Positions 7,491 to 62,694 of a stretch of DNA of 64,000 nucleotides are shown piece by piece; position 1 is the stretch's first letter; each line of letters starts with the position of its first letter. The position numbers were made by a program, and so were the translations under genes. The DNA lies in the NCBI GenBank assembly GCA_016215115.1, contig JACRLN010000045.1:1-64000 (forward strand), read 5' to 3'. The notes under the pieces were generated by a model, which saw only the letters and a list, made by a program, of their open reading frames with translations, made no database searches and was not told the DNA's origin. The DNA comes from Nitrospirota bacterium. GTDB lineage: Bacteria > Nitrospirota > Thermodesulfovibrionia > UBA6902.

Positions 7491-7958
7491 ATGAAAAAGA
7501 TATTATTAATCAGTTGCATTCTGGTTGTATTAGCTGCTGTTCCATACAGTTTTGCGGGGATGGGCGGAGGTATGAGCGGAGGCGGCATGAGCGGTGGAAT
7601 GTCAGGTGGTCATCCCGGCGGAGGCATGACCGGTGGACAGATGGGCGGAGGAATGATGGGCGGACAGCATGGCCAGATGATGCAGCATGAAGGCATGATG
7701 AACCATGACCAGATGATGAACAACATGACAGATATGATGAATCAGATGTCGGGGATGATGGGCAATATGTCAGAGATGATGAAAGATATGCCCGCAGATA
7801 AGATGAAAAGGATGTCGGAGATGATGCGGGACATGTCGAAAGACATGATGGAGATTTCCAATATGATGGAAAAGGGCATGACAACAGATGAAGAGATGAA
7901 AGCAATGCATAACAGAATGATGGAAATGCAGAAACAGATGTCGGATATGAAAAAATAG
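7491..7958 (+). CDS. Secreted Met/Gly-rich protein, copy 1
   Basis: 155 aa. Signal peptide of about 22 residues (MKKILLISCILVVL... cut near FAG), then a Gly-Met-rich stretch (GGGMSGGGMSGG and similar) and a long region with Met in pairs every 6-8 residues (MMNHDQMMNNMTDMMNQMSG). It is a clear paralog of the protein at 19899, which sits directly in front of the copper ATPase. Paired Met and His residues suggest periplasmic Cu(I)/Ag(I) binding, but that is inference. GGGAGG lies upstream of the ATG. Confidence 0.65.
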   Translation: MKKILLISCILVVLAAVPYSFAGMGGGMSGGGMSGGMSGGHPGGGMTGGQMGGGMMGGQHGQMMQHEGMMNHDQMMNNMTDMMNQMSGMMGNMSEMMKDMPADKMKRMSEMMRDMSKDMMEISNMMEKGMTTDEEMKAMHNRMMEMQKQMSDMKK

Positions 7959-19898: not shown

Positions 19899-20321
19899 AT
19901 GAAACGCATTTTTTTGATAACAGTTCTGATTTTAGGAGTGGCTGCTTACGGCTTTGCCCAGATGGGTGGAGGCGGCGGCATGATGGGCGGACAGAAGCAT
20001 GAGCCGGGCATGATGGAACAGAAAGGTCAGATGATGGAGCAGCACAAAGGCATGATGAGTCATGACGAGATGATGAACAACATGAAAGATATGATGGGTC
20101 AGATGTCCGGTATGATGGAAAAAATGTCGGGCATGATGAAAGATATGTCCAAAGATAATATGAAGGCGATGTCCGGCATGATGAAGGATATGTGCTCCGA
20201 GATGAAAAATATGTCCGACATGATGGATAAGGACATGGCCTCAGAAAAAGATATGACGAAGATGCATGATGGGATGATGGAAATGCAGAATAAGATGTCG
20301 GATATGGAAATGAAGAAATAA
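19899..20321 (+). CDS. Secreted Met-rich protein, copy 2
   Basis: 140 aa. Signal peptide (about 1-20, ...AAYGFAQ), a short GGGGGMMGG segment, then [20 protein letters not shown] and repeated M-x-x-MM pairs to the end. Clear paralog of the protein at 7491. Its stop codon overlaps the ATG of the copper ATPase (TAATG), so it is made together with the exporter. That linkage is the best argument for a periplasmic copper-binding role. Confidence 0.75.
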
Positions 20322-42000: not shown

Positions 42001-45000
42001 ATAGAGCTGTGCGTCGGCCTCTGAGGCATTGAATTGCTGCAGAAGCACCTGACCATGTGTCCATGCCAGATCAAAGACGCGATCCGCGAGACGCCGGTCC
42101 TGGTATTTCTGCACAAGGCTTAATGCTGCATCGCGGGTTTCGCCGATGCCGGAGACAATATTTATCGTTACCGATTCTTCCGGCTCCAGCGTTATCCGAT
42201 ACCGGATGGCGACAATCGGATCGAGCACGGAGCCCTCACTGCCCGAGAGTGCACCCGTAAAAAAACCGGCTACTCCGCTTATCGCTTGTGGATCGGCGAC
42301 TGTGTTTCCGCGGCCGATGAACTGCATGCGGTCCGTCTCATAGGAGACTTCTCCGATCTCCGCCCCATGCACGGCCATCAGGTGAAACATCCAGGGCGCC
42401 TGCTCGCTCTGGGAGCGGGGACGGCGGGTACAGAGGATCGCTCGCTGCCGGCGGATGATCTCGGTCTGAACAAAGAGATTGCTGAACGCCGGATGCAGTG
42501 CGTCAGCGGCAGGCGGTGTAAGAACCACTTCCGCATAACTCGTAACATCAATCGCTCTGCGCGTCCGGGCCCGGTTAGTGATGCGGACCCGGCGCAGTTC
42601 AATATCATCCTCGGGTGAAACAGCGATCTCGGTATGTGTGTCAAAATCGTGGTCCCGGCAGCGAAACTCCGCTTTCGCCTCTGAGAAAATCGCTTCGTAA
42701 TTATTCGATTGATTATCCGGTCGGTTGAGCGTCGGCTGATATGCGGTGGACCAGAACTCTCCGCTCGCCACGTCGCGGAGGTAACAGAACGTCCCCCAGT
42801 TGTCGCGGGTACTGTCTTCGCGCCAGCGTGTCACTGCGAGGTCCTTCCAGCGGCTGTAACCGCCCCCCGCATTCGTAATCATCACGTGGTATCTGCCGTT
42901 GGAGAGCAACTGCACTTCCGGTGTCGGCGTATCCGGGCTGCTGAAAACGCGCACCGGCGTCTCCATACCACTGGAAGCCCCCTGTATGTCGGAAAGCTCG
43001 GAGGTGTGCGAATAAAACGCCGTGGCCTTCGGCACCCGCTCCTGGAGCAGCAGCATGGTTGCCTGGAACACCGGGTCCGCCTCGAATCGCTTCTGCATCG
43101 GACGGTCCAGGAGCAGATAGGCCAGAGAGAGGAGGCTCATACCTTGGTGATGCGCCATGAAGGACCGTACCACGGCGCTCGATTGCCCGCGTTGTTGACG
43201 TGAAGGGGTGTAGTCGATCGCTTCATAGAAGCCGTACTTCCCTTCGAAACCTTCCGTGGCGAGTCGCTGCAGATTCAGGCACGCCTCCTCGGGCGCAACC
43301 ATCAGCGCGAGCGCCGAGGCATAGGGTGCAATGACCAGATCCTCTGCGAGTCCGCGTTGGAGCCCCAGACCGGGCACACCAAACGCACGGTACTGGTAGT
43401 TGAGATGAACGTCGATCGTGCTGTAGCCGGATTCCGACATGCCCCACGGCACGCCGCGCTGCCTCCCATACTCGATCTGCCTCGCCACAGCCGCCTTATA
43501 GGTCTGGTCAAGCAGCGTGTGTTCGTACGTCGGCATCACCAGAAGCGGCATGAGGTACTCGAACATCGAACCGCTCCATGAAAGGAGAACAGGCTCTCCA
43601 CCAGCGGTAGTAAGCAGGCGCCCTAAGGCAAACCAGCTTTCCTGCGGCAGTTGTCCTTGCGCAATCGCCACAAAACTGCACAATCTCGCTTCCGAAGCCA
43701 GCATATCGTAGTAACTCGAGTCCCTCCTGCGCTCACCAACGTTGTACCCGATAGTCAGCAGATGACATGTTTCATCAAACAGGAAATCATATTCCATACG
43801 GGCGAGTTCGCTGGATTGCAATGCAAGCCGTTCGATAGCCGCGATTCTCTCACAGGCACGTTGGTTCCCAAGTCTTGCCAGTTCGCGCAGCGTCGGGATC
43901 TCATCGATGCCGTGAACCGTCGGCGGGTCAAGAAGGGTCAGCTCATCGAGGGCATCCCGGCATTGCCGGGCAAAGGCACGCGCCCACCACCCAGCCGGGT
44001 TCTCATGGTCGGCATTAATGCCGGCGACCACTTCTGCAGCGGATAGTGCCAGATGATCAAGGCACAGCCGGGCCGCCATAAGTTTAGTAGGCGGGGACTT
44101 GAGCGCGGACTCCAGATGCTTTTGTAGTTGAGCAAGCCCCACTGGAGCGGCGCCCTCCGAATCGTCTCCGGTTCCAGCGTCCGCGAGAATCCCAACGAGA
44201 CTCATGAGTGTATCGTTGAGGCCGTCAAAAAATCTCTCTCCCAGGATCTTTTGATCGGGAAGTGCGAGCAGCCCCAGCCGCAATGTCAGAAGGTGAGCGG
44301 CGAGGTTCCCGCTGTCTACCGTTGAAATGTAGAGGGGCGACAGTGGTTTCAGAGATTTCGTGTCGTACCAGTTGTAGAAGTGGCCCCGGTGTCGTTTCAA
44401 AGCTTCCATTGTGTGGAATGCATTCGCCGTGCGCTTAATGAGCTGTCCCGTTAAAATATAGCCGAAGTCGTACGCGGATAAATTCGCGAGCAGCGCAAGG
44501 CCCATGTTGGTCGGCGAGGTGCGATGTGCGACCACGGCAACCGGATACTCCTGATAGTTATCCGGCGGCAGCCAATTATCTTCCGGGTCGACGAAGGTCT
44601 CGAAAAAGGCCCACGTTTTTCGGGAAAGCTTCCGGAGAAAGAGGGTCTGTTCGTCCGTCAGTCTTGCTCCGCGGCGAGCGAGCGGTCGGCTGATCCACCA
44701 CGCTATAACAGGGGAGGCAAACCAGAGACATAGCATAGGCCCGGCCACAGCTAAAACGGACGGATTCGAAAGCATCAGATAGATCATCACTGCAAAGGCA
44801 ACAAGGGGCGCGATCCACATCATTCGGCAATAGGCGGCGAGGCCTCCCATACGGGAATCACGGCTATTACGCTCGGGGTCGCTTGACGGATTCCATTCAA
44901 GCAGTCGCCTGTGCGTTACCAGCATTCTCCCGGTCGAACGCACAATCGCATCCAGACTGAAAAAAGCCTCGTAAGGAAGGCACATGAACGTAAATGCAGC

Positions 45001-47730
45001 CTGAGCAAAGCGCCAGCCGGCGGAACGCACTGCGGCAATGAGGTGCTGACCCAAAAGCATATCGTCCGGCTTCTGAAGCAGATCCTTGATGGAGGTAATC
45101 AAAGAAGGAATCAGGATGATCCCGATTACCGACAAGGTCCAAAACCATGCCGATGGCAAGACCGTCCAGCCCAGAAGCAACAGGAGTGTTAATGCCGAAG
45201 GCGCGAGGCTGCGCCGAAGGTTGTCGAAGATCTTCCATCGGGACAGCAGTGAGAGAGAGTTCTTTTGAAAGCGGGCCTCAAGGCCCGGAACGCCCGGCAG
45301 CAGCCATCGAACAATCTGCCAATCCCCACGAATCCAGCGGTGCCTTCGGCTTACGTCTTCGCTGTAGCGAGATGGATATTCCTCATATAACTGCACATCG
45401 CTTAACAGCCCCGCCCGCGCATAGCACCCTTCGATAAGATCGTGGCTGAGCATAAGGTTCTCAGGGAGACGTCCGTTGAGTGCCCGCTCGAATGCAGCGA
45501 CTTCATAGATACCCTTACCAATAAATGAGCCTTCCTGGAAGAGGTCTTGGTAAATATCAGAGACAACATGCGTATATGGATCAATGCCCGGCTCACTACC
45601 GCACATTCTCGCATACCGCGACCGGTTAGTGCCGGGCAGACTTACTGCCACGCGCGGCTGAAGGATGCCGTACCCGGCAACAACCCGCTGTTTTTCTTCG
45701 TTGTATTGCGCACGATTTAGCGGGTGCGCCATTGCTCCCACAAATTGCCACGCTGAATCGCGCGGCAGTAGCGTATCGGTGTCAAGGGTGATCAAGTACT
45801 TCACATCAGATAAGACGGAAGTTTCACCGACTACGAGCGAAAAGCGCTCTTTTGAGACACCATGTGCACCGGCATGCAAAAAGGAATTTAATTCCGCAAG
45901 CTTCCCTCGCTTGCGCTCGTAACCCATCCAAACCCGCTCCCGGGGATTCCATCGGCGCGGACGATGGAAAAGGAAGAACGTATCGCCTTTTGCACTCATG
46001 TACTTTTTATTCAGATCTTCGATCATCTTCCGGGCGAGCTGCAACAGCGGTCCGTCCTCCGGCAGGGTTTCTTCGGCCGCGTCCCGAAAATCAGTTAACA
46101 GGGCGAAGTGCAGGTTTTCGTCCCGATTTGCCAGGAACCTGACTTCAAGCGCCTCGATCAGGTTCTCGATGTTCTGAGGGCTTGTGAGCAGTGTCGGGAC
46201 CACGGCCAGTGTACGCAATTCCGGAGGGATCCCTTTGGAGAAGTCCATTCGCGGCAGCGGATGCGGTGTCACTATCAACGTAGCAATCCAGTTCACCAGC
46301 GCCACCGCCAACTGACTTGAGCACAGCAGAGAGAGAATACCAATCAGCGTCAGCAGCCAATTATGCAGGTCGCCTGCATACGCCTTCGCCAATAAGCTGC
46401 CGGTGAAAATCCCTGTAATCAGCGTGATCGTGCCAAGATAGAGGAGCAAAGGAAACCGGGAGATCAATTTTTGAAAGGCGTCAGAGACAGATAATTGCAC
46501 TTCTGCCAGATGCTCAAGCTGCGCCAGTCCCTTGTCTATCAGGTAAAAGCCGACATGTGACGAGCGATTGTCGAAGCATAGATTGTTATCTTCAGAGGCT
46601 GCGTTTTCACGCGCAAGCCGGATCGCTTCTGTCGCCACCTCGCTCTCGGATAACCGGCTGTTCTTTGCTATCTTCTCAACAACGTGGCGGTAACGGTCAC
46701 GAGTAAAAAAATCCATCTTGCCGTAAACCCCGCCGGCGTCCTCACGCAGTATCTGATCGACAATACTCATCGTCTCGACGAACTCGCGCCAGTCCATCGC
46801 ACCCAGGAAACGGAGGCTGCCGATACTGTTGCTTATCGAGACCTGGTCGGCGGCCTGTTGCTGGTTCTCCGACTGCACCAACTGCTCAACCGTCTGGCCG
46901 AATTCGGAGAGTCGCTGCTCAAGCCAGGTAAGCGGCAATGCAAGAGCAGGGCCCTGTCCCTTCAGCCGGCGCGTAAGTTCCGCAACAAACGAACTCACCA
47001 TCGGCGGGCCCGACCGCGCCATATCCGCGATCACCAAAATCAGGCTCTTCGGGTCTTTCCCGGCGGTCTCCGTCATCTGGTCCGCCCAATAATCAGCGCT
47101 GTTCCGGTCGATCCTGTCAGCGGCGATCCGGACTGCAACGCGCCGGAGATTCTCGATCAGTGCCAGGCGTAACATGATGGGGATGGCCCATAATTCGCCT
47201 AACTTCAGGGCGGTGACTGTCTGGTAGGCTGCCACGAAACTGCTGAGGCTCTCCGGATCTACCCGCCCATCGCCATGCGAAATCGTCTCCAGCGCAATGT
47301 CATACACGCGCGGAAGACCGGCCGATGGACCATTCAGCAGTCGAGGCAGTTCCCGGCTATACCCCTTTGGCAAATGCCTCCTGGCCGTGCGGATCTGCTC
47401 CTCAATCAGATAGAAGTTGTCGAGCAGCCATTCCCCAGCCGGTGTAATCCTGCGGTTGTCCTTGACCGCCTCTGTAATCAGGTGGCGGACATTAAGCAGT
47501 ACGCTTTCATTCTCAGCCAGCCGTGTCAGGAGTTGCTCCGGGGCATAGTCCGGGCTCAACTTATGTGAGCCCGCCAGGGTCTTGCCATGCTGCTCCATCT
47601 GATAGGCGCTAAACAGCTCCGATCGCAATGGTGGCTCGCCGCCGGCGTACTCTTTCACAAAGCTGTTTCCGCTGAGGCTTGCCCGCAAATGAGACAAGTT
47701 TTTAAGGACGCTCTTTCTGCTCATCTTCAA
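39052..47730 (-). CDS. ndvB: Cyclic beta-1,2-glucan synthase (NdvB/Cgs type)
   Basis: 2892 aa, typical for this family. Order: N-terminal region with membrane spans near 430-490; the GT84 glycosyltransferase core with DTDTLLPRDSAW near 650 and RRHRWIRGDWQIVRW near 805; further spans around 850-1020; a glucoamylase-like domain (about 1060-1550); two glycoside-phosphorylase-like (GH94) beta-sandwich regions; and a C-terminal GH94 catalytic barrel with IGSGDWNDGMN near 2565, whose Asp is the catalytic acid in phosphorylases. It initiates, elongates and cyclises glucan for the periplasm. The whole gene is visibly GC-richer than its surroundings, so transfer is likely. Confidence 0.95.
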   Translation of the reverse strand: MKMSRKSVLKNLSHLRASLSGNSFVKEYAGGEPPLRSELFSAYQMEQHGKTLAGSHKLSPDYAPEQLLTRLAENESVLLNVRHLITEAVKDNRRITPAGEWLLDNFYLIEEQIRTARRHLPKGYSRELPRLLNGPSAGLPRVYDIALETISHGDGRVDPESLSSFVAAYQTVTALKLGELWAIPIMLRLALIENLRRVAVRIAADRIDRNSADYWADQMTETAGKDPKSLILVIADMARSGPPMVSSFVAELTRRLKGQGPALALPLTWLEQRLSEFGQTVEQLVQSENQQQAADQVSISNSIGSLRFLGAMDWREFVETMSIVDQILREDAGGVYGKMDFFTRDRYRHVVEKIAKNSRLSESEVATEAIRLARENAASEDNNLCFDNRSSHVGFYLIDKGLAQLEHLAEVQLSVSDAFQKLISRFPLLLYLGTITLITGIFTGSLLAKAYAGDLHNWLLTLIGILSLLCSSQLAVALVNWIATLIVTPHPLPRMDFSKGIPPELRTLAVVPTLLTSPQNIENLIEALEVRFLANRDENLHFALLTDFRDAAEETLPEDGPLLQLARKMIEDLNKKYMSAKGDTFFLFHRPRRWNPRERVWMGYERKRGKLAELNSFLHAGAHGVSKERFSLVVGETSVLSDVKYLITLDTDTLLPRDSAWQFVGAMAHPLNRAQYNEEKQRVVAGYGILQPRVAVSLPGTNRSRYARMCGSEPGIDPYTHVVSDIYQDLFQEGSFIGKGIYEVAAFERALNGRLPENLMLSHDLIEGCYARAGLLSDVQLYEEYPSRYSEDVSRRHRWIRGDWQIVRWLLPGVPGLEARFQKNSLSLLSRWKIFDNLRRSLAPSALTLLLLLGWTVLPSAWFWTLSVIGIILIPSLITSIKDLLQKPDDMLLGQHLIAAVRSAGWRFAQAAFTFMCLPYEAFFSLDAIVRSTGRMLVTHRRLLEWNPSSDPERNSRDSRMGGLAAYCRMMWIAPLVAFAVMIYLMLSNPSVLAVAGPMLCLWFASPVIAWWISRPLARRGARLTDEQTLFLRKLSRKTWAFFETFVDPEDNWLPPDNYQEYPVAVVAHRTSPTNMGLALLANLSAYDFGYILTGQLIKRTANAFHTMEALKRHRGHFYNWYDTKSLKPLSPLYISTVDSGNLAAHLLTLRLGLLALPDQKILGERFFDGLNDTLMSLVGILADAGTGDDSEGAAPVGLAQLQKHLESALKSPPTKLMAARLCLDHLALSAAEVVAGINADHENPAGWWARAFARQCRDALDELTLLDPPTVHGIDEIPTLRELARLGNQRACERIAAIERLALQSSELARMEYDFLFDETCHLLTIGYNVGERRRDSSYYDMLASEARLCSFVAIAQGQLPQESWFALGRLLTTAGGEPVLLSWSGSMFEYLMPLLVMPTYEHTLLDQTYKAAVARQIEYGRQRGVPWGMSESGYSTIDVHLNYQYRAFGVPGLGLQRGLAEDLVIAPYASALALMVAPEEACLNLQRLATEGFEGKYGFYEAIDYTPSRQQRGQSSAVVRSFMAHHQGMSLLSLAYLLLDRPMQKRFEADPVFQATMLLLQERVPKATAFYSHTSELSDIQGASSGMETPVRVFSSPDTPTPEVQLLSNGRYHVMITNAGGGYSRWKDLAVTRWREDSTRDNWGTFCYLRDVASGEFWSTAYQPTLNRPDNQSNNYEAIFSEAKAEFRCRDHDFDTHTEIAVSPEDDIELRRVRITNRARTRRAIDVTSYAEVVLTPPAADALHPAFSNLFVQTEIIRRQRAILCTRRPRSQSEQAPWMFHLMAVHGAEIGEVSYETDRMQFIGRGNTVADPQAISGVAGFFTGALSGSEGSVLDPIVAIRYRITLEPEESVTINIVSGIGETRDAALSLVQKYQDRRLADRVFDLAWTHGQVLLQQFNASEADAQLYGRLAGSIIYANSLLRADPGVLIKNHRGQSGLWGYAISGDLPIVLLQIEDPANINLVRQLVQAHAYWRLKGLIVDLVIWNEDHAGYRQLLHDQIMGLIAAGTEANVTDRPGGIFVRAAEQISNEDRILFQTVARVIITDSRGSLADQINRRSTVKITVPLLVPTRTHRSEPLAVAALPRHDLSFFNGLGGFTPDGREYVITTAHGQVTQAPWVNVLANPHFGTVISESGLAYTWGENAHEFRLTPWHNDPVSDSIGEAFFLRDEERGHFWSPTPLPSLGATPYVTRHGFGYSVFEHTERGIRSEVWVYVAMDAPVKFTVIKVRNESGRSRRLSATGYVEWVLGDLRPKTATHVITELDPKSGAIFARNPYNTEFADRVAFFDVDDINRTVSGDRTEFLGRNGTLRNPAALTRARLSGRVGAALDPCAAIQVAFDLADGQEREIIFRLGTGRDADDAGNIVRRFRGSAAARSTLDAVWQYWNHTLGAVQVETPDQSVNILTNGWLLYQTLSCRLWARSGYYQSGGAFGFRDQLQDVMALIHAEPGLVREHLLLCAAHQFKEGDVQHWWHPPSGRGVRTHCSDDFLWLPLAASSYVLNTGDTGVLDELIHFIEGRQVNADEDSYYDLPIRSEQTASLYDHCVRAIMKGLSLGEHGLPFIGSGDWNDGMNMVGEHGKGESVWLGFFLYEVLMRFTEIARLREDLPFAERCQREAAQLRRNIEQNGWDGEWYLRAFFDDGSPLGSAANPECQIDSIAQSWSVLSGAGNAKRSAMAMEALDKRLVRRDHRLIQLLDPPFDKSDLNPGYIKGYVPGVRENGGQYTHAAIWAAMAFAKLGNSRRAWELLSMINPVNHGRSPEEIETYKVEPYVVAADVYAVSPHTGRGGWTWYTGSAGWMYRLIMESLLGLRLEVDKLRFTPCLPAEWESFKVHYRYRETLYHITVLQTHNGSVGSGVTVDGIEQPDNAIPLVDDRQEHVVEVRIHVVGG

Positions 47731-53283: not shown

Positions 53284-54494
53284 GCAGGCTTCATCTGGCG
53301 TCGTATTAAATCATTCTCTCTTACCCCCGGCTGGATTGGGAGCAGGACGGATTCTTCATTTCTTGCCGCTTCAATCGGGTCTTCTTCTGTGTCATATATT
53401 TTAGAAACTTCAAAAGTCTGGTGTTCCAGGCCGGTTGAAAGAAATTCTATATAATCGCCGATCTTCAGGCTGTTTCTGAGCGCTACAACCGCTTTGCCAT
53501 TTCTGACAGACTGGACTATGCCGACAAGCTCGTGGCTCATTTTGTATATTTCCTTTTCATCATGGTTATATCCGGTGTTGGAATGTTTACCTAAGAACAT
53601 CCCTGTTGTATAACCCCTGCTTGAAAACATGGATAGTTCCCTGAGCCAGTTCTCTTTTACTCTGTAAGGTCTGTTTTTCAGGCTGTCGACAGCCTCTCTG
53701 TATGTTTTCACCACTCCGGCAACATAATTGATTCCCTTCATCCTTCCTTCGATCTTAAAACTGTCTACTCCTGCGTCAGCAAGTTTATCAAGTTGTTCGA
53801 TCATACAGAGGTCTTTTGAACTTAAGACATAGGTTCCCCTGTCATTTTCATAAACGGGGAAATATTGCCCATGCCGGGTCTCTTCCATTAATGTATAATT
53901 CCACCTGCATGAATTAGTGCATTCTCCCCGGTTAGCAGACCTGTTTGCCAGAAAACTGCTTATATAACATCTGCCCGAGTAAGATATGCATATTGCTCCG
54001 TGAACAAAACATTCGAGCTCAATAGATACATTGTCTCTTATCTCCTTAATTTCATCAATGGTAAGCTCTCTGGAAAGCACAAGTCTTTTTGCCCCCAGTT
54101 TCTCCCAGAATTTCGCTGCACTGTAATTGGTAATATTTGCCTGGGTGCTTATGTGAACAGGGACATTGGGAAGCATTTCAGATATCATGTCAATTACGCC
54201 CAGATCTGAAATGATTAGAGCGTCGGGCGTTATTTCCCTCAGGGAGAGCAGATGTTCTTTTATAAGTGAAATATCTCTGTTGTGAGGAAAGATATTTACA
54301 GTGACATAGAACTTCTTATCTCTGGAACGAACCAGTTGAGCTGCCTTTTCAAGTTCCCCGGGTGTAAAATTGTCGGCTTTGGCCCTTAGGCTGAATTCAG
54401 ACAATCCCATATAGACAGCATCAGCGCCATAATGGAGCGCTGTCTTTAATTTTTCATAATTACCGGCAGGGGCGAGAAGTTCGGGTGTTTTCAT
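53280..54494 (-). CDS. U32 family peptidase / tRNA-modification protein
   Basis: 404 aa from ATG 54494, which overlaps the upstream stop (ATGA). MKTPELLAPAGNYEKLKTAL opens the U32 TIM-like fold; ECFVHGAICISYSGRCYISS and RSANRGECTNSCRWNY carry the conserved Cys set that in TrhP/YegQ relatives binds Fe-S and modifies tRNA uridine 5-hydroxylation. The TIM barrel and Cys motifs are complete. Confidence 0.9.
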   Translation of the reverse strand: MKTPELLAPAGNYEKLKTALHYGADAVYMGLSEFSLRAKADNFTPGELEKAAQLVRSRDKKFYVTVNIFPHNRDISLIKEHLLSLREITPDALIISDLGVIDMISEMLPNVPVHISTQANITNYSAAKFWEKLGAKRLVLSRELTIDEIKEIRDNVSIELECFVHGAICISYSGRCYISSFLANRSANRGECTNSCRWNYTLMEETRHGQYFPVYENDRGTYVLSSKDLCMIEQLDKLADAGVDSFKIEGRMKGINYVAGVVKTYREAVDSLKNRPYRVKENWLRELSMFSSRGYTTGMFLGKHSNTGYNHDEKEIYKMSHELVGIVQSVRNGKAVVALRNSLKIGDYIEFLSTGLEHQTFEVSKIYDTEEDPIEAARNEESVLLPIQPGVRENDLIRRQMKPA

Positions 54495-55954
54495 AGGGAA
54501 GTGCGACGGAAGACATCGCTTTTTGCCCACAGCCAGAAGATGCTTTTGAATCCTTTTAACGCAGCTCTTAAATCATGAATACTTTTCAATCCAAGTATGC
54601 GTTTAGCGATAAACTTTGGCCTTGAGTAAAATCTCTTAAAAGCGAGTTGTCTGAGTTTTGCAATCTCTTCTCTTGTCATTGTATAAGGGACAAACGCTGC
54701 TCCCTGATATGTGAAGTCAGTCAGGTCGTCAGACATTGTGCCGTATTTCTTAATGTTATCGTAAAGCTCAGTGCCTGGAAATGGCGTCAATGCGTGGAAA
54801 TTAGCAATGTCAGGGTTTATCTCACAGGCGAAGTCAATTGTTTTTAACCCATCTTCAAATGTTTGACCCGGAAGGCCAAAGAGAAACGGCGTGTATACTG
54901 TTAAACCAACTTCTTTTGCCGCCTTGACCGCCTTGCGTGTCTGATCAAGCGTTATACCTTTTCTGATTGTATTCAAATTCTTCTGCACTCCGCTTTCAGC
55001 GCCAAAAAGTATGGCCCAGCACCCGGCATCTTTGAAAGCTTTTAATAAGGGCTTATCAACCTGATTTACACATGCAGAGGCAAACCATGTGAAATCGAGT
55101 TTGCGTCTTTTTATCTCGTGTGTAATCTGCATAGCCCTGTCGTAGTCTGCGGCAAAAGTGTCATCAATAAACTTTATCTCTCTGTAACCTTGATCTAAAC
55201 AGAGTTCAATCTCTTGCATAACGTTTTCAACGCTGCGGTATCGTATACCACTATTTCTCTCTTTATCAATCTGGAAACAGTATATGCATCTCCTGTTACA
55301 GCCTCGTGCGGTCATGATAACAGCCACAGGTTTTCTTTTGTAAGTCGCAGGCGGAGGGATATAGTTATTCGTATCACCAAGAAGCTCACGCGCAGGGAAG
55401 GGCAGGGCGTCAATGTCTGTGATCAGCAGCCGTTTAGGATTTATTATAATCCTTTCACCATCCCGGAAAACTACGCCCTCAACACCGTCAAGGCTTTCTC
55501 GCTGAGACAATTTTTCCAGCATTTCCACTACGGTAATCTCACCTTCACCAGTGACTACGGCGTCAATATCCTTTGAGTCAGCAAGACATTTTTCCTGCAT
55601 TGCAATAGGGTAGGGGCCGCCAACGGCGATGAAAGTATAGTCCTTCACTTCTGACTTCTGACTTCTGACTCCTGACTTTCTTATTTCCGCTGCTGTAAAC
55701 ATCGCCTTCTTCCATCCGAATGCTGTCGAATAAATACCGATGAATTCAGGTTTGAATTTATCAATTTCATCCATGATTTCATCATGCTTCATGAATGCTC
55801 CATTCAGAAATTGCACCTCATGCCCTGCTTTCATAAGTGACGACGCAACATATAATGTTCCGAGCGGCTGCCAGTAATTTATCTGGGAACCGGCGGTCTT
55901 TGAAGAAAATATTTCCTCCGGCACCCATGAGGGGATAATGAGAACGCACTTCAT
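54491..55954 (-). CDS. B12-binding radical SAM protein
   Basis: 487 aa. N-terminal cobalamin-binding-like domain (PSWVPEEIF..., LYVASSLMKAGHEVQFLNGA), then the radical-SAM cluster CNRRCIYCF at about 219-227 (CxxxCxxC) with the TIM-barrel radical domain, and a C-terminal extension. Class of methyltransferases or ring-contractases acting on lipids or natural products; substrate unknown. It contains a tandem-repeat-encoded insert GVRSQKSEVKDY at about 95-106. Start overlaps the stop of the flavoprotein upstream (ATGA). Confidence 0.9.
   Translation of the reverse strand: MKCVLIIPSWVPEEIFSSKTAGSQINYWQPLGTLYVASSLMKAGHEVQFLNGAFMKHDEIMDEIDKFKPEFIGIYSTAFGWKKAMFTAAEIRKSGVRSQKSEVKDYTFIAVGGPYPIAMQEKCLADSKDIDAVVTGEGEITVVEMLEKLSQRESLDGVEGVVFRDGERIIINPKRLLITDIDALPFPARELLGDTNNYIPPPATYKRKPVAVIMTARGCNRRCIYCFQIDKERNSGIRYRSVENVMQEIELCLDQGYREIKFIDDTFAADYDRAMQITHEIKRRKLDFTWFASACVNQVDKPLLKAFKDAGCWAILFGAESGVQKNLNTIRKGITLDQTRKAVKAAKEVGLTVYTPFLFGLPGQTFEDGLKTIDFACEINPDIANFHALTPFPGTELYDNIKKYGTMSDDLTDFTYQGAAFVPYTMTREEIAKLRQLAFKRFYSRPKFIAKRILGLKSIHDLRAALKGFKSIFWLWAKSDVFRRTSL
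55637..55676. repeat. In-frame heptamer repeat inside radical-SAM gene
   Basis: AGTCAGG/AGTCAGA units (minus strand) encode VRSQKSEVKD. Same repeat family and nearly the same peptide as the insert in copA at 20511. Confidence 0.8.
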
Positions 55955-57381
55955 AATTGATTCGTAATCTTGAGCTTTGAATTTTGAATTATCTTTTCCG
56001 CAACTTCCCTGCCGGATTCGATCGCATGGTCTATATTATAGTATTTAAACATCCCGGTCCTGCCGGCGATATGCAGGTTTTTAAAATTCTCCAGATATTG
56101 CAGGATTTTAGAATATTGCTCATTGTAGCCAACTTCAAAAACCGGATATGCCTTAGGCACCCTCACTATGCAATAATCAAAGACATCATTCTTTTTAATA
56201 AACCCCAGTTGCTCTAACTGTTTTACTGTCATGGATACAAGTTCTTCATCTGATGAGTTCCATATCCTGTCTTCTTTGAAACAAAAGTATTCTGCGACGA
56301 TATGGGTTTTCCCCTCGGGCGCCATGTAGGGACTCCAGTTTTTTGGTTCATGAATCCTTCCGAGAGGCATGCTCTGTTCCGGCAGATACAGCCACGTGAG
56401 ATCGGTAACCCTTTCACGGTTGAGCATTATCGTTACAATTACAAGATCCCTGTATTTTAATTTTGATACTGCTGTAAGAATATCAATCGGCGGAGAAGGA
56501 TTCAGCATGCTGACAAGATGTGTAATCGGGATGCTCGAGATAAACTCGTTACCTTTCAGATCGTAAGTATTGTCACAGTTTTTTGCAATTATATTTGTGA
56601 TAACAGCATTCCTGTGTTTTATCTCTGAAACCCGTGTATTTGTCAGGACAGTATTTCTTTTTTCAATTTCTTCTTTAAACCTGTCGGATATCTGACCTAT
56701 TCCCATGGGGGGATAAATGAATTCATCGACAAGGGTAGGGACTCTCCGTCCGTTGAGTTTAAAGAGGGCATTCTTTATCGCTACTCCCAGAGAGAGACCT
56801 TCTATTCTCCGGGATACCCATTCTTCACTTATGTTTTTACAGGAAATCCCCCATACTTTTTCACTGTATTCCTTAAAGTAAAGGGTGAACAATGTTCTGC
56901 CGAAATGACTTATTACCCAGTCCTCAAGGGAAATATTTTGCGGAGAGATGAAAAGATTTTTAATTTTTTCCTTCCCGTAATCGGAAATTGCCCTAATCGT
57001 AGTAGATACACCCAGACCCAAAAGTGCATTTGCAGGTTTGAGTGGATAATCGAAGAATTTTTTCTGCAAATATATTTTGCTTTTTCGGTGGACCGTTAAG
57101 TAATCGTTCCGTAGAATATTTTTTACAAAACGTTCCGTTTCTTCGTTTCTGGTAAAAAACCTGTGACCCCCCAGATCAAATTTGAAATTACCGTGACGTA
57201 TGGTCTTTGAGAGCCCTCCTACTTCTTTGTCACTTTCGAATACAGTGACAGACCGCCCTGCATCTGCAAGACTGAATCCTGCAGAGAGACCTGCAAGGCC
57301 GCCGCCAAGAATAACACTCGTATTATCACTGAATGGCAGAGTGTGCTGCGGGTGTGTTGAATTGTGCGTGAAGGAGTTCAT
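55951..57381 (-). CDS. FAD-dependent oxidoreductase, protoporphyrinogen oxidase/UGM-like
   Basis: 476 aa. FAD/NAD fold VILGGGLAGLSAGFSLADAG at about 24-43 with GGLSKTIRHGNFKFDLGGHR near 58-77, and TGMFKYYNIDHAIESG at the end. It resembles FAD amine-oxidase/UDP-galactopyranose mutase-like proteins that sit in glycan or lipid-modification operons. It heads a minus-strand operon with the radical-SAM and U32 genes, joined by ATGA overlaps. Confidence 0.87.
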   Translation of the reverse strand: MNSFTHNSTHPQHTLPFSDNTSVILGGGLAGLSAGFSLADAGRSVTVFESDKEVGGLSKTIRHGNFKFDLGGHRFFTRNEETERFVKNILRNDYLTVHRKSKIYLQKKFFDYPLKPANALLGLGVSTTIRAISDYGKEKIKNLFISPQNISLEDWVISHFGRTLFTLYFKEYSEKVWGISCKNISEEWVSRRIEGLSLGVAIKNALFKLNGRRVPTLVDEFIYPPMGIGQISDRFKEEIEKRNTVLTNTRVSEIKHRNAVITNIIAKNCDNTYDLKGNEFISSIPITHLVSMLNPSPPIDILTAVSKLKYRDLVIVTIMLNRERVTDLTWLYLPEQSMPLGRIHEPKNWSPYMAPEGKTHIVAEYFCFKEDRIWNSSDEELVSMTVKQLEQLGFIKKNDVFDYCIVRVPKAYPVFEVGYNEQYSKILQYLENFKNLHIAGRTGMFKYYNIDHAIESGREVAEKIIQNSKLKITNQL

Positions 57382-57472: not shown

Positions 57473-57652
57473 TTATTTTCCGTAACCGCCAGTTGCAGCG
57501 GGCTTTTGTTCACCATAACCACCGGACTGAGCGGGCTTTTGTTCACTCTGCTTTGGCTTTTCGGTAACCGTCTCTTTTTTCTGACAAGCAACAAGAGACA
57601 GGCCGAGAACTAAAGTAATAATGCACAAGGTTATCACAATTAACTTTTTCAT
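57473..57652 (-). CDS. Small lipoprotein with GGYG tail
   Basis: 59 aa from MKKLIVITLCIITLVLGLSL; lipobox LSLVAC with Cys at about 22, then a Lys/Gln/Pro-rich segment and two SGGYG/TGGYGK units, the last residues being GGYGK. The same GGYGK end occurs on the repeat protein at 58370. GGAGAGCTC ribosome-binding site. Confidence 0.65.
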   Translation of the reverse strand: MKKLIVITLCIITLVLGLSLVACQKKETVTEKPKQSEQKPAQSGGYGEQKPAATGGYGK

Positions 57653-57784
57653 GTGAGCTCTCCTTTCATATAAGGTTATTAATGTGTCTCTCCACATGGT
57701 TTTATATTAACACGAGGATGACGGGTTTATGTTTTAATGTTACTATTATTTAAACCGTAGGATCAGGCAGGGGGCTTACCCTCT

Positions 57785-57816
57785 AAAAAGAAGAACCGCT
57801 TTATACTCAAAGCGGT
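57785..57816 (-). terminator. Terminator downstream of Usp
   Basis: On the minus strand ACCGCTTT...AAAGCGGT (57795-57816) is followed by TTCTTCTTTTT (57785-57795). It would end the Usp transcript. Confidence 0.8.
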
Positions 57817-57855
57817 CCTTCCTGAATTGCAGCTTCAGAAAAATAATCACGTGTC

Positions 57856-58332
57856 CTATTTTCTTTTGACAACGAGTACGGGGAGCCGGGCGCTATTAAC
57901 AACCTCCCTGCTGACGCTTCCCATAAATAAATGAGAGGTCCTCGTTCCTCTCGAACCGATCATGATAATGTCAACTCCCTCTTCATCTGCAGCTTTCAGA
58001 ATCTCTTCAGCAGGATGACCTTTTCTTATTACGGTTTTTACAGCAGTTAAACCTCTCTCCTCCAGCGCCTTTTTGTAATAATCCAGAACTGCCGTCGCTT
58101 TTTTATCCAGTGCTTCCTGATATTCTGTTCCCTCCAGCGCTTTCTTCAAGGTGGACATTTCTGAGACGCTTAACAGCACATCATCCATTAAAGACCTGCC
58201 TTCAAGCTTTTCTACATAGCACAAAACTATTGTCTCCGGACGGGCACAGGAACACATGTTGATACATACATTAAACAACTCCTTGGTACCTTTTGTGTCA
58301 TCTACTGCAATGAGTATTTTTTTCATGTTCAT
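57856..58332 (-). CDS. Universal stress protein (UspA family)
   Basis: 158 aa (ATG 58332; ATG 58326 also possible). KKILIAVDDTKGTKELF at the N-terminus and the ATP-binding signature MIGSRGTRTSHLFMGSVSRE then VVNSARLPVLVVKR at the end. Lies in the sulfur cluster between GGYG-repeat genes. Confidence 0.93.
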   Translation of the reverse strand: MNMKKILIAVDDTKGTKELFNVCINMCSCARPETIVLCYVEKLEGRSLMDDVLLSVSEMSTLKKALEGTEYQEALDKKATAVLDYYKKALEERGLTAVKTVIRKGHPAEEILKAADEEGVDIIMIGSRGTRTSHLFMGSVSREVVNSARLPVLVVKRK

Positions 58333-58369
58333 ACCTGCCTATTTTTTTCAGATTAATAGATGAGATACT

Positions 58370-58687
58370 TTATTTACCATAACCGCCTGCTGCCGGCGCA
58401 TGACCGTATCCTCCTGCCGAAGGAGCAGCACCATAACCACCTGCAGACGGCGCAGCACCATAACCGCCCGCTGCCGGTGCATGACCATAACCACCTGCCG
58501 ACGGCGCAGCACCATAACCGCCCGCTGCCGGTGCATGACCATAACCACCTGCCGACGGCGCAGCACCATAACCGCCCGCTGCCGGATGTGCCGCTGTCTG
58601 TTTATGGGTGCCTGTCTGACTGTAAACTATTAAAAAGCCGAGCATTGCCGCAACAATTACAATAATTATTGCACGGGGCGTATTCAT
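58370..58687 (-). CDS. Membrane-anchored GGYG-repeat protein
   Basis: 105 aa. Membrane anchor (about 5-22, AIIIVIVAAMLGFLIVYS), then eight AGGYG units alternating AAPSAGGYG and HAPAAGGYG, ending GGYGK. The DNA repeats in a 27-bp unit (54 bp for the alternating pair), so it grows or shrinks by slippage. Strong AGGAGGAATT site. No family recognised; Gly-Tyr-rich tail with His could bind metal or act as a surface or low-complexity layer. Its position beside TusA and YeeE suggests a sulfur-related role, by context only. Confidence 0.65.
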   Translation of the reverse strand: MNTPRAIIIVIVAAMLGFLIVYSQTGTHKQTAAHPAAGGYGAAPSAGGYGHAPAAGGYGAAPSAGGYGHAPAAGGYGAAPSAGGYGAAPSAGGYGHAPAAGGYGK

Positions 58688-58714
58688 AATTCCTCCTTAA
58701 TAAAGGATAAATAT

Positions 58715-58966
58715 TTATCCTTTTTTAATCTTCAAATATATTTTGCCGCCTTCTGTTTTCTTATTCAATATATCGTTTCCTACCTGATCGCACATCTGTG
58801 TTATAGTCTCAACAGATGAGGGATTATCAAGTATTACCTCAACAACGTCACCTTCGCTCATTTTCTCAAGAGACTTCTTACAATATATCTGTGGATGTGG
58901 ACATACATATCCACAAACATCAAGCATATAAGTTCCTTCTCCTGTTTTTTCAAATTTCATTGCCAT
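58715..58966 (-). CDS. TusA-family sulfur carrier
   Basis: 83 aa. CPHPQ motif in DVCGYVCPHPQIYCKKSL (about 17-34), with the sulfur-carrying Cys in CPxP; the rest is a typical TusA/SirA alpha-beta sandwich (VEVILDNPSSVETI). Carries sulfane sulfur to acceptors. Directly followed by YeeE/YedE, a common pairing. GAGGAATTTC upstream. Confidence 0.92.
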   Translation of the reverse strand: MAMKFEKTGEGTYMLDVCGYVCPHPQIYCKKSLEKMSEGDVVEVILDNPSSVETITQMCDQVGNDILNKKTEGGKIYLKIKKG

Positions 58967-59015
58967 GATTGAAATTCCTCCTTTAAGAATTTAATTTGAT
59001 TGATTGTGCCTTCGG

Positions 59016-60440
59016 TTAGAAAGCCTCCATTTCTTTTGCCATTTTCCTTTCCGACCACCAATTAAAGAATTTAACGCCGATGAAAGCTCCTGCAACCATA
59101 CCAGAGCCATATAACCAACCGCTCGGATCGCCGCCTGCAACTCTTATAAAGAATGCTCCAATGTTGCAGCCGAGGGCAGGCCTTGAGCCTACTCCCATTA
59201 ATAATCCGCCGATAAGTCCCCACGCGATAAGCTCGCCTTTTGGGAGTTTGAATTTATATTCATTGTTCAGCCGCGCCATTACCATCGCTCCAAAGATAAT
59301 GCCAAACGACATCCAGAGCGCCGGGTTACGCCATGGTTCCGGAAGACCGTTATTAACACCGAAAAATATGTTGTCGTGCATATTCCAGCCGAATTTCTCC
59401 AGGATCCATGCACCAAACTGTCCTTCCTGACTGGTGATATACCAGTAACCGGGATCAAATACGGTTCCTTTGATTGAGACGTCGTTCGTATATCCCATCT
59501 TTGTTAACAGCCTTCCAAAATTATCAACTCCGAATTTTATCTGCATGCCCTTCATTACCAGGATATGGAGTCCTGCTACAATACCGATTAAAAAGCCCAT
59601 GAGCGTCGTTCTCTTTGATGCTGTTATCATATTCCAGATACCTGCAATATCGTCACCAATACCGGTAGGAGCGCCTTTTTGTTTCGCCCTTTTCTTTATG
59701 AACCCTTTCCTCATATAAACAGCATAAATAATAACGAGAATAATGGCTGCCGGTATAAGGGTGTTCAAGAGTGAGTCAGCTACAAAATATTTTAGTGAAC
59801 CCGGTAATGCCTCAGTCATAGTTTTTGTATGCGATAACTGAAGCACCGGCTGATCCCATATGTAACCTGCGAGATATGTATCAAAAGATGAAGTCATTTT
59901 GTCAGCGGGGAGTCCTTTAGCCATGGCTGAAGTTATCCATTTCTGAGGCAGCAAAAAGTCAAACCATTTGACGTCTACGAAAACCGCCTGTCCAATGCAA
60001 AGTCCAAAGAATGCCGCCAGGAAAGAGGTCATATTACCTTCGCCGATCTTATAAAGAGATCCTGAAGCGCAGCCTCCGGAGAGAACCATGCCCACGCCGA
60101 AGATTAAGCCTGCTATTAACGTGTGTATGCCAAACGGGGCGGGATGGAATGTACTCATGTTGGTTGAGGCAAGCGTCGCCTGAATAATACTGAAAAACAT
60201 TAACGCTACCAAAACGCCGACTGCCATCCTCGGGACGCCGGCAGCAAAAAGGTCTCTCGAGGCAGAGGCAAAACAAAATCTCCCGTACTGCAGCATCATC
60301 CCGTAAGCGAAGCCGAACCAGATGTACGCTATGAGGTACATGTAAAATACATTCGCCTTATAATACATCAGACTGATGAGTATAAAAGCGCCTGTGATTA
60401 TAAAAGCCCACATTTTGTTTCTTTTTTCTTCGTTTTCCAC
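59016..60440 (-). CDS. YeeE/YedE family sulfur-compound transporter
   Basis: 474 aa with about ten or more membrane segments. Conserved Cys motifs GGCASGSLYKIGEG (about 125-138) and RPALGCNIGAFFIRVAGGDP (about 425-445), as in YeeE/TsuA thiosulfate carriers where the Cys relay thiosulfate. Substrate here is not fixed; thiosulfate fits the TusA and rhodanese neighbours. AGGTTCTAAACCTG precedes the ATG. Confidence 0.92.
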   Translation of the reverse strand: MENEEKRNKMWAFIITGAFILISLMYYKANVFYMYLIAYIWFGFAYGMMLQYGRFCFASASRDLFAAGVPRMAVGVLVALMFFSIIQATLASTNMSTFHPAPFGIHTLIAGLIFGVGMVLSGGCASGSLYKIGEGNMTSFLAAFFGLCIGQAVFVDVKWFDFLLPQKWITSAMAKGLPADKMTSSFDTYLAGYIWDQPVLQLSHTKTMTEALPGSLKYFVADSLLNTLIPAAIILVIIYAVYMRKGFIKKRAKQKGAPTGIGDDIAGIWNMITASKRTTLMGFLIGIVAGLHILVMKGMQIKFGVDNFGRLLTKMGYTNDVSIKGTVFDPGYWYITSQEGQFGAWILEKFGWNMHDNIFFGVNNGLPEPWRNPALWMSFGIIFGAMVMARLNNEYKFKLPKGELIAWGLIGGLLMGVGSRPALGCNIGAFFIRVAGGDPSGWLYGSGMVAGAFIGVKFFNWWSERKMAKEMEAF

Positions 60441-60773
60441 AGGTTTAGAACCTCCTTTTTTGGTTAATGATTGGGATTAAAATTATGATCGCTGTTTTAA
60501 GAGAATGTCTAACTTAGCAACTGAATATTAGACCTTTGAATAATAGTATACACCGCTCTGATAGTCCAATAAAAAAAACTAATTGTATAATTATGACTCT
60601 TTATTTGATAATAATCTGTTTAGAAAGTGCCTTACGTCATTCCCACGAAAGTGGGAATCCAATCTTTTGTAAGGTTTTTGCTTTCGCGGGGACGGCGTCT
60701 GTCTTCCCGGTTTCACGGGAATGACAAATAACTGCAGTTTATCAACCGACTCTAATCCCCTTATAGGGATGCA
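60441..60773. other. Gap with palindromic repeat
   Basis: No gene seen. Holds the GTCATTCCCACGAAAGTGGG...CGGTTTCACGGGAATGAC element at 60636-60725, another member of the GTCATTCCC family. Confidence 0.6.
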
Positions 60774-61076
60774 TTACAAAACAATTACTTTGTCTGCATC
60801 ATGATTCATATTGGCGTTGTCAAACTGGCTCCCGCAAGCAATCTCGCTTGGGAGACCTTCGGTAGAAACATTAATATGTTTTGCGCTGTGATCGCAGAAA
60901 CTCATCGTTACGCCTTTCGTTTTACACAGTGCGGTAAAAGAAGGGTTTCCCAAAAGTTTTGTGCCTGCGTCCATACTGAAGATTGTAACCGTATGGCCTT
61001 TTGCCAGAGCAGACTTGGAAATCCCCAGGATGCTGTCAAGATGTTTATCTGTATTAACTAGAATGCCGAGCTTCAT
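60774..61076 (-). CDS. DsrE-like sulfur-relay protein
   Basis: 100 aa. Alpha/beta DsrE-type fold: KLGILVNTDKHLDSILGISK, then HTVTIFSMDAGTKL, with a Cys in ALCKTKGVTMSFCDHS (about 50-64) and a second conserved-looking Cys in EIACGSQFDNAN near the end. Would carry sulfur between TusA and other enzymes. AAAGGAGACG precedes the ATG. Confidence 0.72.
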   Translation of the reverse strand: MKLGILVNTDKHLDSILGISKSALAKGHTVTIFSMDAGTKLLGNPSFTALCKTKGVTMSFCDHSAKHINVSTEGLPSEIACGSQFDNANMNHDADKVIVL

Positions 61077-61118
61077 TTTTGTTCGTCTCCTTTCAAAATT
61101 GCGGATACAGGTTATTCA

Positions 61119-61289
61119 TTACCAGGATATAACCTTGTCGCTTGATCTTATTAAATCCACAATCTCGTCGTAGTTTTTATTTTCGTTGATGTTTATGATT
61201 GTTACCTGATTGGTTTTCTTATGTTCTTCAATAAGCTTAGTGACAGTGTCATCAGTATTTTTCTGTCTTAAAATATATAGGATTTTCAT
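61119..61289 (-). CDS. DsrH/TusB-like small protein (56 aa)
   Basis: Starts MKILYILRQKNTDDTVTKLI with GGAGGCAGTAGGG ahead of it and ends IRSSDKVISW. The short length, start strand, and terminal SDKVISW fit DsrH/TusB-type subunits, although the usual conserved Cys is absent. Placed between two DsrE-like genes, giving an E-H-F-like set. Confidence 0.6.
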   Translation of the reverse strand: MKILYILRQKNTDDTVTKLIEEHKKTNQVTIININENKNYDEIVDLIRSSDKVISW

Positions 61290-61358
61290 TCCCTACTGCC
61301 TCCTTTGATTAATTGTCTGGCGGTAACCGTTATAGTTTTAGAACTGCCGGCAATTATA

Positions 61359-61631
61359 TTAATAAGGTAATATCAGATCGAACTCAAGAAGCTTCTGAGC
61401 TATCTCTTCTGTGGAGATGTATTCGATATTTTCGTTTCCCTTGAAATTTGTATAAGTCTTTATATCCATGTCATTCATGGTTTCAAGGTTCATCATATTG
61501 TCATCTGTTTCTTCGACCTTCCTGTCCATTACGAACACGGTAATAAGATCATCTGCGAGCATCGCACCCACTCCCATTCTCAGGCCTTCACCCTGTCTGT
61601 CCCTTACCAAAATAGCAATCTTTTTTGCCAT
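61359..61631 (-). CDS. DsrE/F-like protein
   Basis: 90 aa. KKIAILVRDRQGEGLRMGVG then ADDLITVFVMDRKVEETD, and EIAQKLLEFDLILPY at the end: an alpha/beta DsrE/F-type fold with no Cys at all, so it may be a structural subunit or carry something other than sulfane sulfur. GGAGGTG upstream. Confidence 0.68.
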   Translation of the reverse strand: MAKKIAILVRDRQGEGLRMGVGAMLADDLITVFVMDRKVEETDDNMMNLETMNDMDIKTYTNFKGNENIEYISTEEIAQKLLEFDLILPY

Positions 61632-61740
61632 TTTTTCACCTCCTTTTTTACAAATGAAATTCCAATGTCATTCAGAGAAAGCCCGGAATGACATTGGAAT
61701 TGTTATCTATCCCTTAAAGTTGAAAGAATATTTAGGCAAT

Positions 61741-62694
61741 CTATTTCTCAATAGGATATTTTGCCGTGTCAAGCCTGTTGCCCCATTCACCCCATGAACC
61801 TACATAATTTCTGACATTCGGATAACCCAGTATATGCTTAAGTGCAAAATAAGTATGCGCAGCACGTATGCCCGCCTGGCAGTATGTTATAACCTCTTTA
61901 TCCTTTGTAACCCCTTTTGCCTCATAAGCAGACTTAATATCTTTGGCTGATTTAAATGTACCGTCACTATTAAGATTTGCTGAGAAGAAACCAATATCTG
62001 CAGCGCCGGGTATGTGCCCAACCTTTTTGTTACCCATCTTGCTCTCATCCGCATACACTCCTTTATACTCATCTGTGCCGCGGGTATCCACTATTACAGC
62101 CTTCGGGTTCTTCAGATTTTTCAAGACATCGTCTGCGGTTGCAATGAGAGAGGCATTTGGGGTTGCCTTATACATCGCAGGTGTTATTTTTGCAGGCCCT
62201 CCTGCTGTAACACGTCCTTCATTCATCCACTTTGTGATGGTGCCATTCAGCATACTCAACTTTTTATGACCGAAATAGTCAAAAAGCCAGAATGCGCCGG
62301 CAGCAAAAAGGGTGTCACTGCTGTGGATTATCACATGGTTATCATTTCCTATTCCCAGACCGCCCACAAGCGCCTCAAATTTTGCCTTATCAGGAGGTGT
62401 GCTGCCGTCTCCAATTGCTCCCATTAAAACAGAGAAATCAAGAAATACGGCGCCGGGAACGTGTTTTAATTCAAAATTTTCCTTCTTGGAAGTTGGGCCG
62501 CCAACATAGACGATTGCAAGCCCTGGATTCTTTAAGTTGTCTGCAAGCCACGAGGTTTCAACAAGCGCCTGTGCCTCCGTGCCTGCTATAACTGTTTGAT
62601 GGCTGAAGAATAATAAGCTGAATAAAAACAGGGCACATAAAACTGTTAAAAATTTCCTCCTGACCATTCTCTCTCTCATGAAATCTTGAAGCAT
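61741..62694 (-). CDS. Secreted rhodanese (thiosulfate sulfurtransferase)
   Basis: 317 aa with a signal peptide (about 1-36, ...IAGTEA). Two rhodanese domains: the first lacks the Cys (HVIIHSSDTLFAAGAFWLFD), the second has the active site YCQAGIRAAHTYFALKH with Cys near 270. It transfers sulfane sulfur in the periplasm. Last gene of the sulfur cluster; AAGGAGGACGC precedes the ATG. Confidence 0.92.
   Translation of the reverse strand: MLQDFMRERMVRRKFLTVLCALFLFSLLFFSHQTVIAGTEAQALVETSWLADNLKNPGLAIVYVGGPTSKKENFELKHVPGAVFLDFSVLMGAIGDGSTPPDKAKFEALVGGLGIGNDNHVIIHSSDTLFAAGAFWLFDYFGHKKLSMLNGTITKWMNEGRVTAGGPAKITPAMYKATPNASLIATADDVLKNLKNPKAVIVDTRGTDEYKGVYADESKMGNKKVGHIPGAADIGFFSANLNSDGTFKSAKDIKSAYEAKGVTKDKEVITYCQAGIRAAHTYFALKHILGYPNVRNYVGSWGEWGNRLDTAKYPIEK

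Follow-up and report, generated by a model that had tools for sequence, protein, structure and literature searches.

Within a 64,000-nucleotide stretch of the Nitrospirota bacterium assembly GCA_016215115.1 (contig JACRLN010000045.1, positions 1-64,000; hereafter, the window), a sulfur-relay locus on the minus strand includes a gene (58370-58687) for a 105-aa protein with GGYG repeats, located immediately after the genes for a long YeeE/YedE-type sulfur transporter and TusA. Judged from its sequence, this GGYG protein is a member of an uncatalogued family of small membrane-anchored proteins with Tyr-Gly (YG) tails encoded in the yeeE-tusA operon, with the rest of the locus resembling the known YTD (yedE-tusA-dsrE) or DsrEFH type II locus. 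We regard the linkage and the family membership as nearly certain, and a partnership between the GGYG protein and YeeE as likely. A preliminary description of the locus had proposed two GGYG proteins as new partners in sulfur handling; the helix-anchored protein forms the core of the association, whereas the second, a lipoprotein, differs in anchor and distribution and does not share this status.

Anatomy of the GGYG protein

The protein consists of an N-terminal membrane helix (residues 3-25) followed by a tail of eight GGYG units ending in GGYGK. In the predicted structure, residues 3-25 form a confident helix (predicted local distance difference test score, pLDDT, >90) and the tail mostly scores below 50; such tails are predicted to be disordered. 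The repeats are encoded by a tandem array (58376-58585 on the minus strand) comprising, according to Tandem Repeats Finder, 3.9 copies of a 54-nt unit made of two 27-nt sub-units. The tails of 58 repeat proteins contain 40% Gly, 20% Ala, 11% Tyr and 0.1% Cys, with GGYG accounting for 375 of about 410 tail Tyr contexts, 3-15 units per protein and a commonly basic last residue (GGYGK in 21, GGYGH in 11 and GGYGR in 2). Successive GGYG units use differing codons in the window and its relatives alike (median of about 5 encodings per gene), indicating that the amino acids are conserved rather than the DNA merely copied, which argues for selection at the protein level. A spurious open reading frame (ORF) or DNA-repeat artefact is rejected by this synonymous variation, the ribosome site and the conserved helix. 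The small protein had no match in Pfam, NCBIfam or the PDB, and full-text searches, which covered the literature on these clusters incompletely and without supplements, found no mention of a GGYG-type protein.

The second GGYG protein is a 59-aa lipoprotein (57473-57652, minus strand, 57652 being the better start) with the lipobox LVAC and two GGYG units; lipoproteins resembling it occur in relatives. Both proteins stop right after GGYGK, as previously described, and GGYGK followed by a stop occurs at these two places in the window, where 0.00 would be expected, and at no other site of the 2.82-Mb source genome (99.4% complete). With only two such proteins in the genome, a genome-wide C-terminal GGYGK sorting tag is rejected. 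From the lipobox in one protein, the membrane helix and short N-terminus of the other and the rhodanese fusions described below, we infer that the tails lie outside the cytoplasm, in agreement with the extracytoplasmic placement suggested earlier; the periplasm would be the corresponding compartment.

Linkage to YeeE and the wider family

Among 231 genomes of the source's class, long YeeE orthologues (E ≤ 1e-100) were found in 86 and the GGYG-family profile (E ≤ 1e-3) in 84, with both present in 78, YeeE only in 8, the family only in 6 and neither in 139 (Fisher p ~ 2e-44, genomes being counted as independent despite their kinship); the link to sulfur genes, on which the earlier proposal depended, thus extends to other genomes. 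In two of the six family-only genomes, the family gene is next to TusA or YeeE, close to where the contig stops. A family member occupies the slot between tusA and usp, the universal stress protein gene, or whichever gene comes next, in 70 of the 71 class loci that are readable far enough beyond tusA. These 71 loci comprise 50 repeat forms, 18 single-motif forms, 2 rhodanese fusions and 1 shortened form, although the labelling is approximate in places (N letters interrupt L101, and a second helix is present in L069 and L071). Nearly all of the 75 loci from other phyla also have a family member in this slot; seven loci were scored as 'none', at least five of which have a visible family protein of the B type (see below) that was lost through start trimming.

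Searches that started from the tail led to the same place. A phylum-wide search with the C-terminal pattern recovered ~20 true proteins, all in the order yeeE-tusA-GGYG-usp wherever the contig was long enough, the remaining matches being chance matches that lack the anatomy. A tail-only profile matched 37 genomes, almost always at the yeeE-tusA locus, and each of the eight genomes tested contained one strong family copy. The 65 ORFs with at least two xGYG motifs in 984 kb of loci were, without exception, slot proteins, fragments thereof or Gly-Tyr lipoproteins of the same loci. Apparently unlinked family members mostly turned out to be linked after all, lipoproteins or rhodanese stems.

A YeeE-alignment scan of 85,000 species genomes yielded loci from Nitrospirota, Desulfobacterota, Gamma-, Beta- and Alphaproteobacteria and Rokubacteria. 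Most of these loci have a pair of short proteins in the slot, A (…LGFxxGYSxPPxxEVG…) and the single-motif protein B (…GYSISxxTGxEPGYFEAxEAAGYGGG…). Alignment of 47 B proteins revealed six invariant columns, among them Y43-G44 of the motif, and profile alignments among A, B and the repeat proteins reached 98-99% probability (one lipoprotein row was wrongly included in the B set). Intermediates between the repeat and single-motif forms were found in L096, L098 and L108. The small protein in the window has the anatomy by which we define the GGYG/B family, an N-terminal membrane helix followed by [A/G/S]YG, encoded between tusA and the next gene. The repeat form is homologous to the single-motif protein that fills this slot in Desulfobacterota, Pseudomonadota and Rokubacteria. 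A single-motif profile run across Desulfobacterota matched one genome; few relevant genomes had been drawn, and repeat forms are invisible to this profile.

The form of the small protein varies with YeeE. In the YeeE tree, clade I (52 rows) includes 45 repeat and 3 rhodanese-stem loci, and clade II (96 rows) includes 82 single-motif and 12 repeat loci, so that repeat or stem-rhodanese forms stand to A plus single-motif B as 48/3 in clade I and 12/82 in clade II. Rooting determines whether the tree implies gain or loss of the repeats; it needs about six or seven changes. The best sign of a specific tie comes from five Desulfobulbales genomes (G460, G885, G891, G897 and G903) that hold both locus types: the GGYG repeat protein accompanies a clade I-like YeeE (67-70% identity to that of the window), and A and B accompany a clade II-like one (52-53%). 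Because each locus has its own matching version, the small proteins appear to belong to YeeE and not just to the neighbourhood.

A possible role for the tail and its alternatives

The membrane stem, the outward-facing tyrosines, the tie to YeeE and the occasional fusion to rhodanese are most simply read as a device that gathers the sulfur donor at the channel. The N-terminal helix would reside in the inner membrane near YeeE, and the disordered, Cys-free Tyr-Gly tail would act in the periplasm as a multivalent, non-covalent gatherer, keeping the sulfur substrate, a periplasmic rhodanese or both at the mouth of YeeE. From YeeE, sulfur would then pass to TusA, the DsrEFH-like trio, DsrC and finally DsrAB, and the lipoprotein, with its like tail, could add further tail copies on the outer side. 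We put forward the complete model, in which a small protein is dedicated to the long YeeE and its tail gathers sulfur or rhodanese, tentatively and with slightly less than even confidence; the gathering function of the tail is its more doubtful part. Direct covalent sulfur binding by the tails is unlikely because they contain essentially no Cys, and a role as covalent persulfide carriers was rejected on the same grounds.

Tails of this kind also occur on other proteins. In the class loci L070 and L073, and in L083, which is cut by the contig end, the slot stem with AAGYGG runs on into a rhodanese; further stem-rhodanese proteins lie away from yeeE (L202 and L204), and L203 resembles the beginning of another. 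The Tyr-Gly unit recurs in a different backbone in lipoproteins with GYGEKAKEAV-like or GGYGE repeats (L052, L085, L089, L092, L198-L200 and L205); in several genomes, Gly-Tyr lipoproteins are encoded near the radical SAM gene or near a paralogue of YeeE. In L096 (1-345) and L098 (2-511), a further repeat protein with perfect SGDYGDSGDYGD repeats follows the slot and ends at the contig edge.

Several observations weigh against a gathering partner of YeeE. Fusions to rhodanese occur in just one small clade of the YeeE tree and in a few other genes, and the gene order within the class may partly be inherited. A small multihaem (CxxCH) cytochrome (L209, 4699-5115) carries the C-terminal GGYGAPAGGYGAPAGGYGKY GGYG tail with no visible sulfur neighbours, implying that use of the tail is not strictly tied to YeeE. 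Finally, the flavin enzyme, the radical SAM enzyme and the GT-C glycosyltransferase-like protein share the locus and have no place in the model.

The main competing explanation, which we consider improbable but serious, is that the protein serves YeeE as an accessory or assembly subunit through its helix alone, the tail being a loosely constrained spacer and repeat expansion nearly neutral. The wide variation in tail length and in the spacers (3-15 units) fits this idea, as do the loss of the repeats in L067 and the second helix that replaces them in L069 and L071. A mere spacer, however, would hardly require that GGYG be held at the amino-acid level despite synonymous variation, that YG be invariant even among single-motif forms, or that lipoproteins of the same locus, with unrelated anchors, still carry GYG repeats.

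More speculatively, by analogy, the GYG tails might condense in the periplasm around YeeE into a YG-type phase, in which zero-valent sulfur or polysulfide would be concentrated and to which the other proteins with such tails (rhodanese, the lipoproteins and the multihaem cytochrome) would be drawn; we think this unlikely. The likeness is to the YG domain of PEX13, where disordered Tyr/Gly-rich repeats on a membrane protein form a selective gel (PMC9795577); PEX13 is, however, eukaryotic and unrelated, and the analogy is one of make-up only. If true, this would be a bacterial convergent counterpart of FG/YG selective phases, serving small-molecule sulfur uptake.

Slightly less probable still is that the Gly-Tyr repeats are a substrate, either a peptide resembling ribosomally synthesized and post-translationally modified peptides or a glycoprotein, of the B12 radical SAM and flavin enzymes or of the GT-C protein. 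A radical SAM gene is present in 44 and a flavin gene in 37 of the 52 loci from outside the class with room for them, and 57 of 76 have a GT-C match upstream. In NCBIfam, the radical SAM protein is nevertheless nearest to HpnJ/BchE, which are lipid or small-molecule enzymes, and scores well below the cut-offs; no GT-C gene lies between dsrE and yeeE in the window; and the membrane anchor speaks against a released peptide. Moreover, several loci, such as L118, L145, L155 and L158, keep A and B with neither a radical SAM nor a flavin gene seen nearby, which weakens the maturase-substrate ideas. Least probable is a coat resembling that of sulfur globules, with the tails lining and holding periplasmic deposits of elemental sulfur: the tails are low-complexity, presumably extracytoplasmic and encoded in a sulfur locus, and the proteins of known globules are found in the periplasm and have repetitive, hydrophobic sequences (PMC10386293), but Sgp, compared by its published description only, has regularly spaced Pro and not GGYG (PMC10386293), the GGYG protein has a membrane anchor, and globules are not known here.

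Organization of the locus and relation to known systems

The sulfur and repeat genes named in the preliminary description all lie on the minus strand at the positions it gave, and Pfam confirms the rhodanese, DsrE, Sulf_transp and TusA assignments. The exported two-domain rhodanese (61741-62694; two Pfam Rhodanese stretches, E = 1.6e-27) has a signal-peptide-like N-terminus and Cys272 in a CQAGIR loop. In the trio formerly called DsrE/H/F-like, the DsrE family protein (60774-61076) scores above the Pfam cut-off, with Cys51, Cys61 and Cys81 invariant in the alignment; the 90-aa (61359-61631) and 56-aa (61119-61289) proteins, both Cys-free and kept in relatives, are DsrF-like and DsrH-like, respectively, by position and size only. 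Neither has a convincing Pfam match, nor does the 90-aa protein have one in NCBIfam, and PDB sequence searches with the trio proteins returned no DsrEFH match. The 474-aa YeeE (59016-60440; Pfam Sulf_transp, E = 3e-41) is followed by TusA (58715-58966; Pfam TusA, E = 2.1e-19), with Cys18/Cys22 in CGYVCPHP. Several more Sulf_transp (YeeE-type) genes occur in the source genome on contigs C19, C9 and C31, one of them in a row with Usp genes.

Overlooked in the earlier description were the Usp gene between the two repeat genes (57856-58332; Pfam Usp, E = 1.6e-24), which lies 3' of the GGYG gene in relatives too, and the flavin and radical SAM genes downstream. Gaps of 49 nt (yeeE-tusA), 27 nt (tusA-GGYG) and 37 nt (GGYG-usp) separate the central genes, most of which are preceded by good ribosome sites (AAGGAGG before the GGYG gene). 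Because usp is followed by a strong 14-pair hairpin with a T run (57820-57784), found by folding and not listed by a consensus terminator scan, yeeE-tusA-GGYG-usp looks like a single transcription unit, and the lipoprotein gene sits past this intrinsic-terminator-like hairpin. Farther downstream on the same strand are frequent neighbours, a flavin oxidoreductase (55951-57381; Amino_oxidase, NCBIfam PRK07208 group) and a B12-binding radical SAM protein (54491-55954). The same pair (54491-57381 in the window) follows the YeeE-TusA module in Nitrospirota, Pseudomonadota, Desulfobacterota and Rokubacteria (L033-L196), and a GT-C glycosyltransferase-like gene usually lies just before yeeE in relatives; enzymes of lipid or glycan type thus travel with the sulfur relay.

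The YTD cluster consists of yedE, tusA, dsrE and conserved hypothetical genes (Umezawa 2020, as cited in PMC9751629 and PMC12998232); it is a candidate for sulfur disproportionation, and in one species its abundance was higher during the disproportionation of thiosulfate (PMC9751629, PMC12998232). The window shares with it YeeE/YedE, TusA, DsrE, small hypothetical genes and an occurrence in Nitrospirota and Desulfobacterota with the dsr pathway, a likeness seen in gene content and order; the synteny of yeeE, tusA and dsrE that marks a YTD or type II locus is present, in an order shared with L054, L060 and others. The GGYG, A or B proteins and the Usp, flavin and radical SAM neighbours, by contrast, go unmentioned in the main texts of those two papers, and the chp3 gene of YTD could encode a GGYG, A or B protein. 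The dsrE gene with two hypothetical genes has been reinterpreted as DsrEFH type II, which passes sulfur from TusA to DsrC and includes a Nitrospirota-rich subtype, with Cys67 as the active Cys of DsrE in cable bacteria (PMC13293266). Here, too, three small genes are syntenic with tusA and yeeE, and one of the three invariant Cys of DsrE may correspond to Cys67, but the trio lies upstream of yeeE in the window; the likeness is judged from synteny. The source genome contains dsrAB, a DsrC-like gene and dsrMKJOP-like genes, the last of these identified by reading the sequences; a DsrD search found no match in it, nor in any of the control genomes. The pairing of a YeeE-family channel with a TusA-like partner also recalls thiosulfate uptake by YeeE-YeeD (TsuA-TsuB) (PMC11073785); the 474-aa YeeE of the window, however, scores 105 bits against an NCBIfam cut-off of 400 for TsuA and is accompanied by extra small membrane proteins.

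For the route by which extracellular sulfur reaches the cytoplasmic Dsr enzymes of sulfur disproportionators and sulfate reducers, the YTD cluster is a leading, if unexplained, candidate. The YG-tail family is probably a missing external part of this sulfur-uptake machine; such a membrane partner, conserved, uncatalogued and changing in parallel with YeeE, supplies a concrete piece for the gap. The recurrent expansion of a single YG motif would, in addition, offer a clear example from nature of selection acting on a low-complexity bacterial tail.

Elsewhere in the window, a 2892-aa ORF (39052-47730), cyclic beta-glucan synthase-like by eye, occupies a GC-rich island (55-59% compared with ~40-45% around it). 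Two small exported Met/Gly-rich proteins are encoded at 7491-7958 and 19899-20321, the latter directly preceding a heavy-metal P-type ATPase-like gene.

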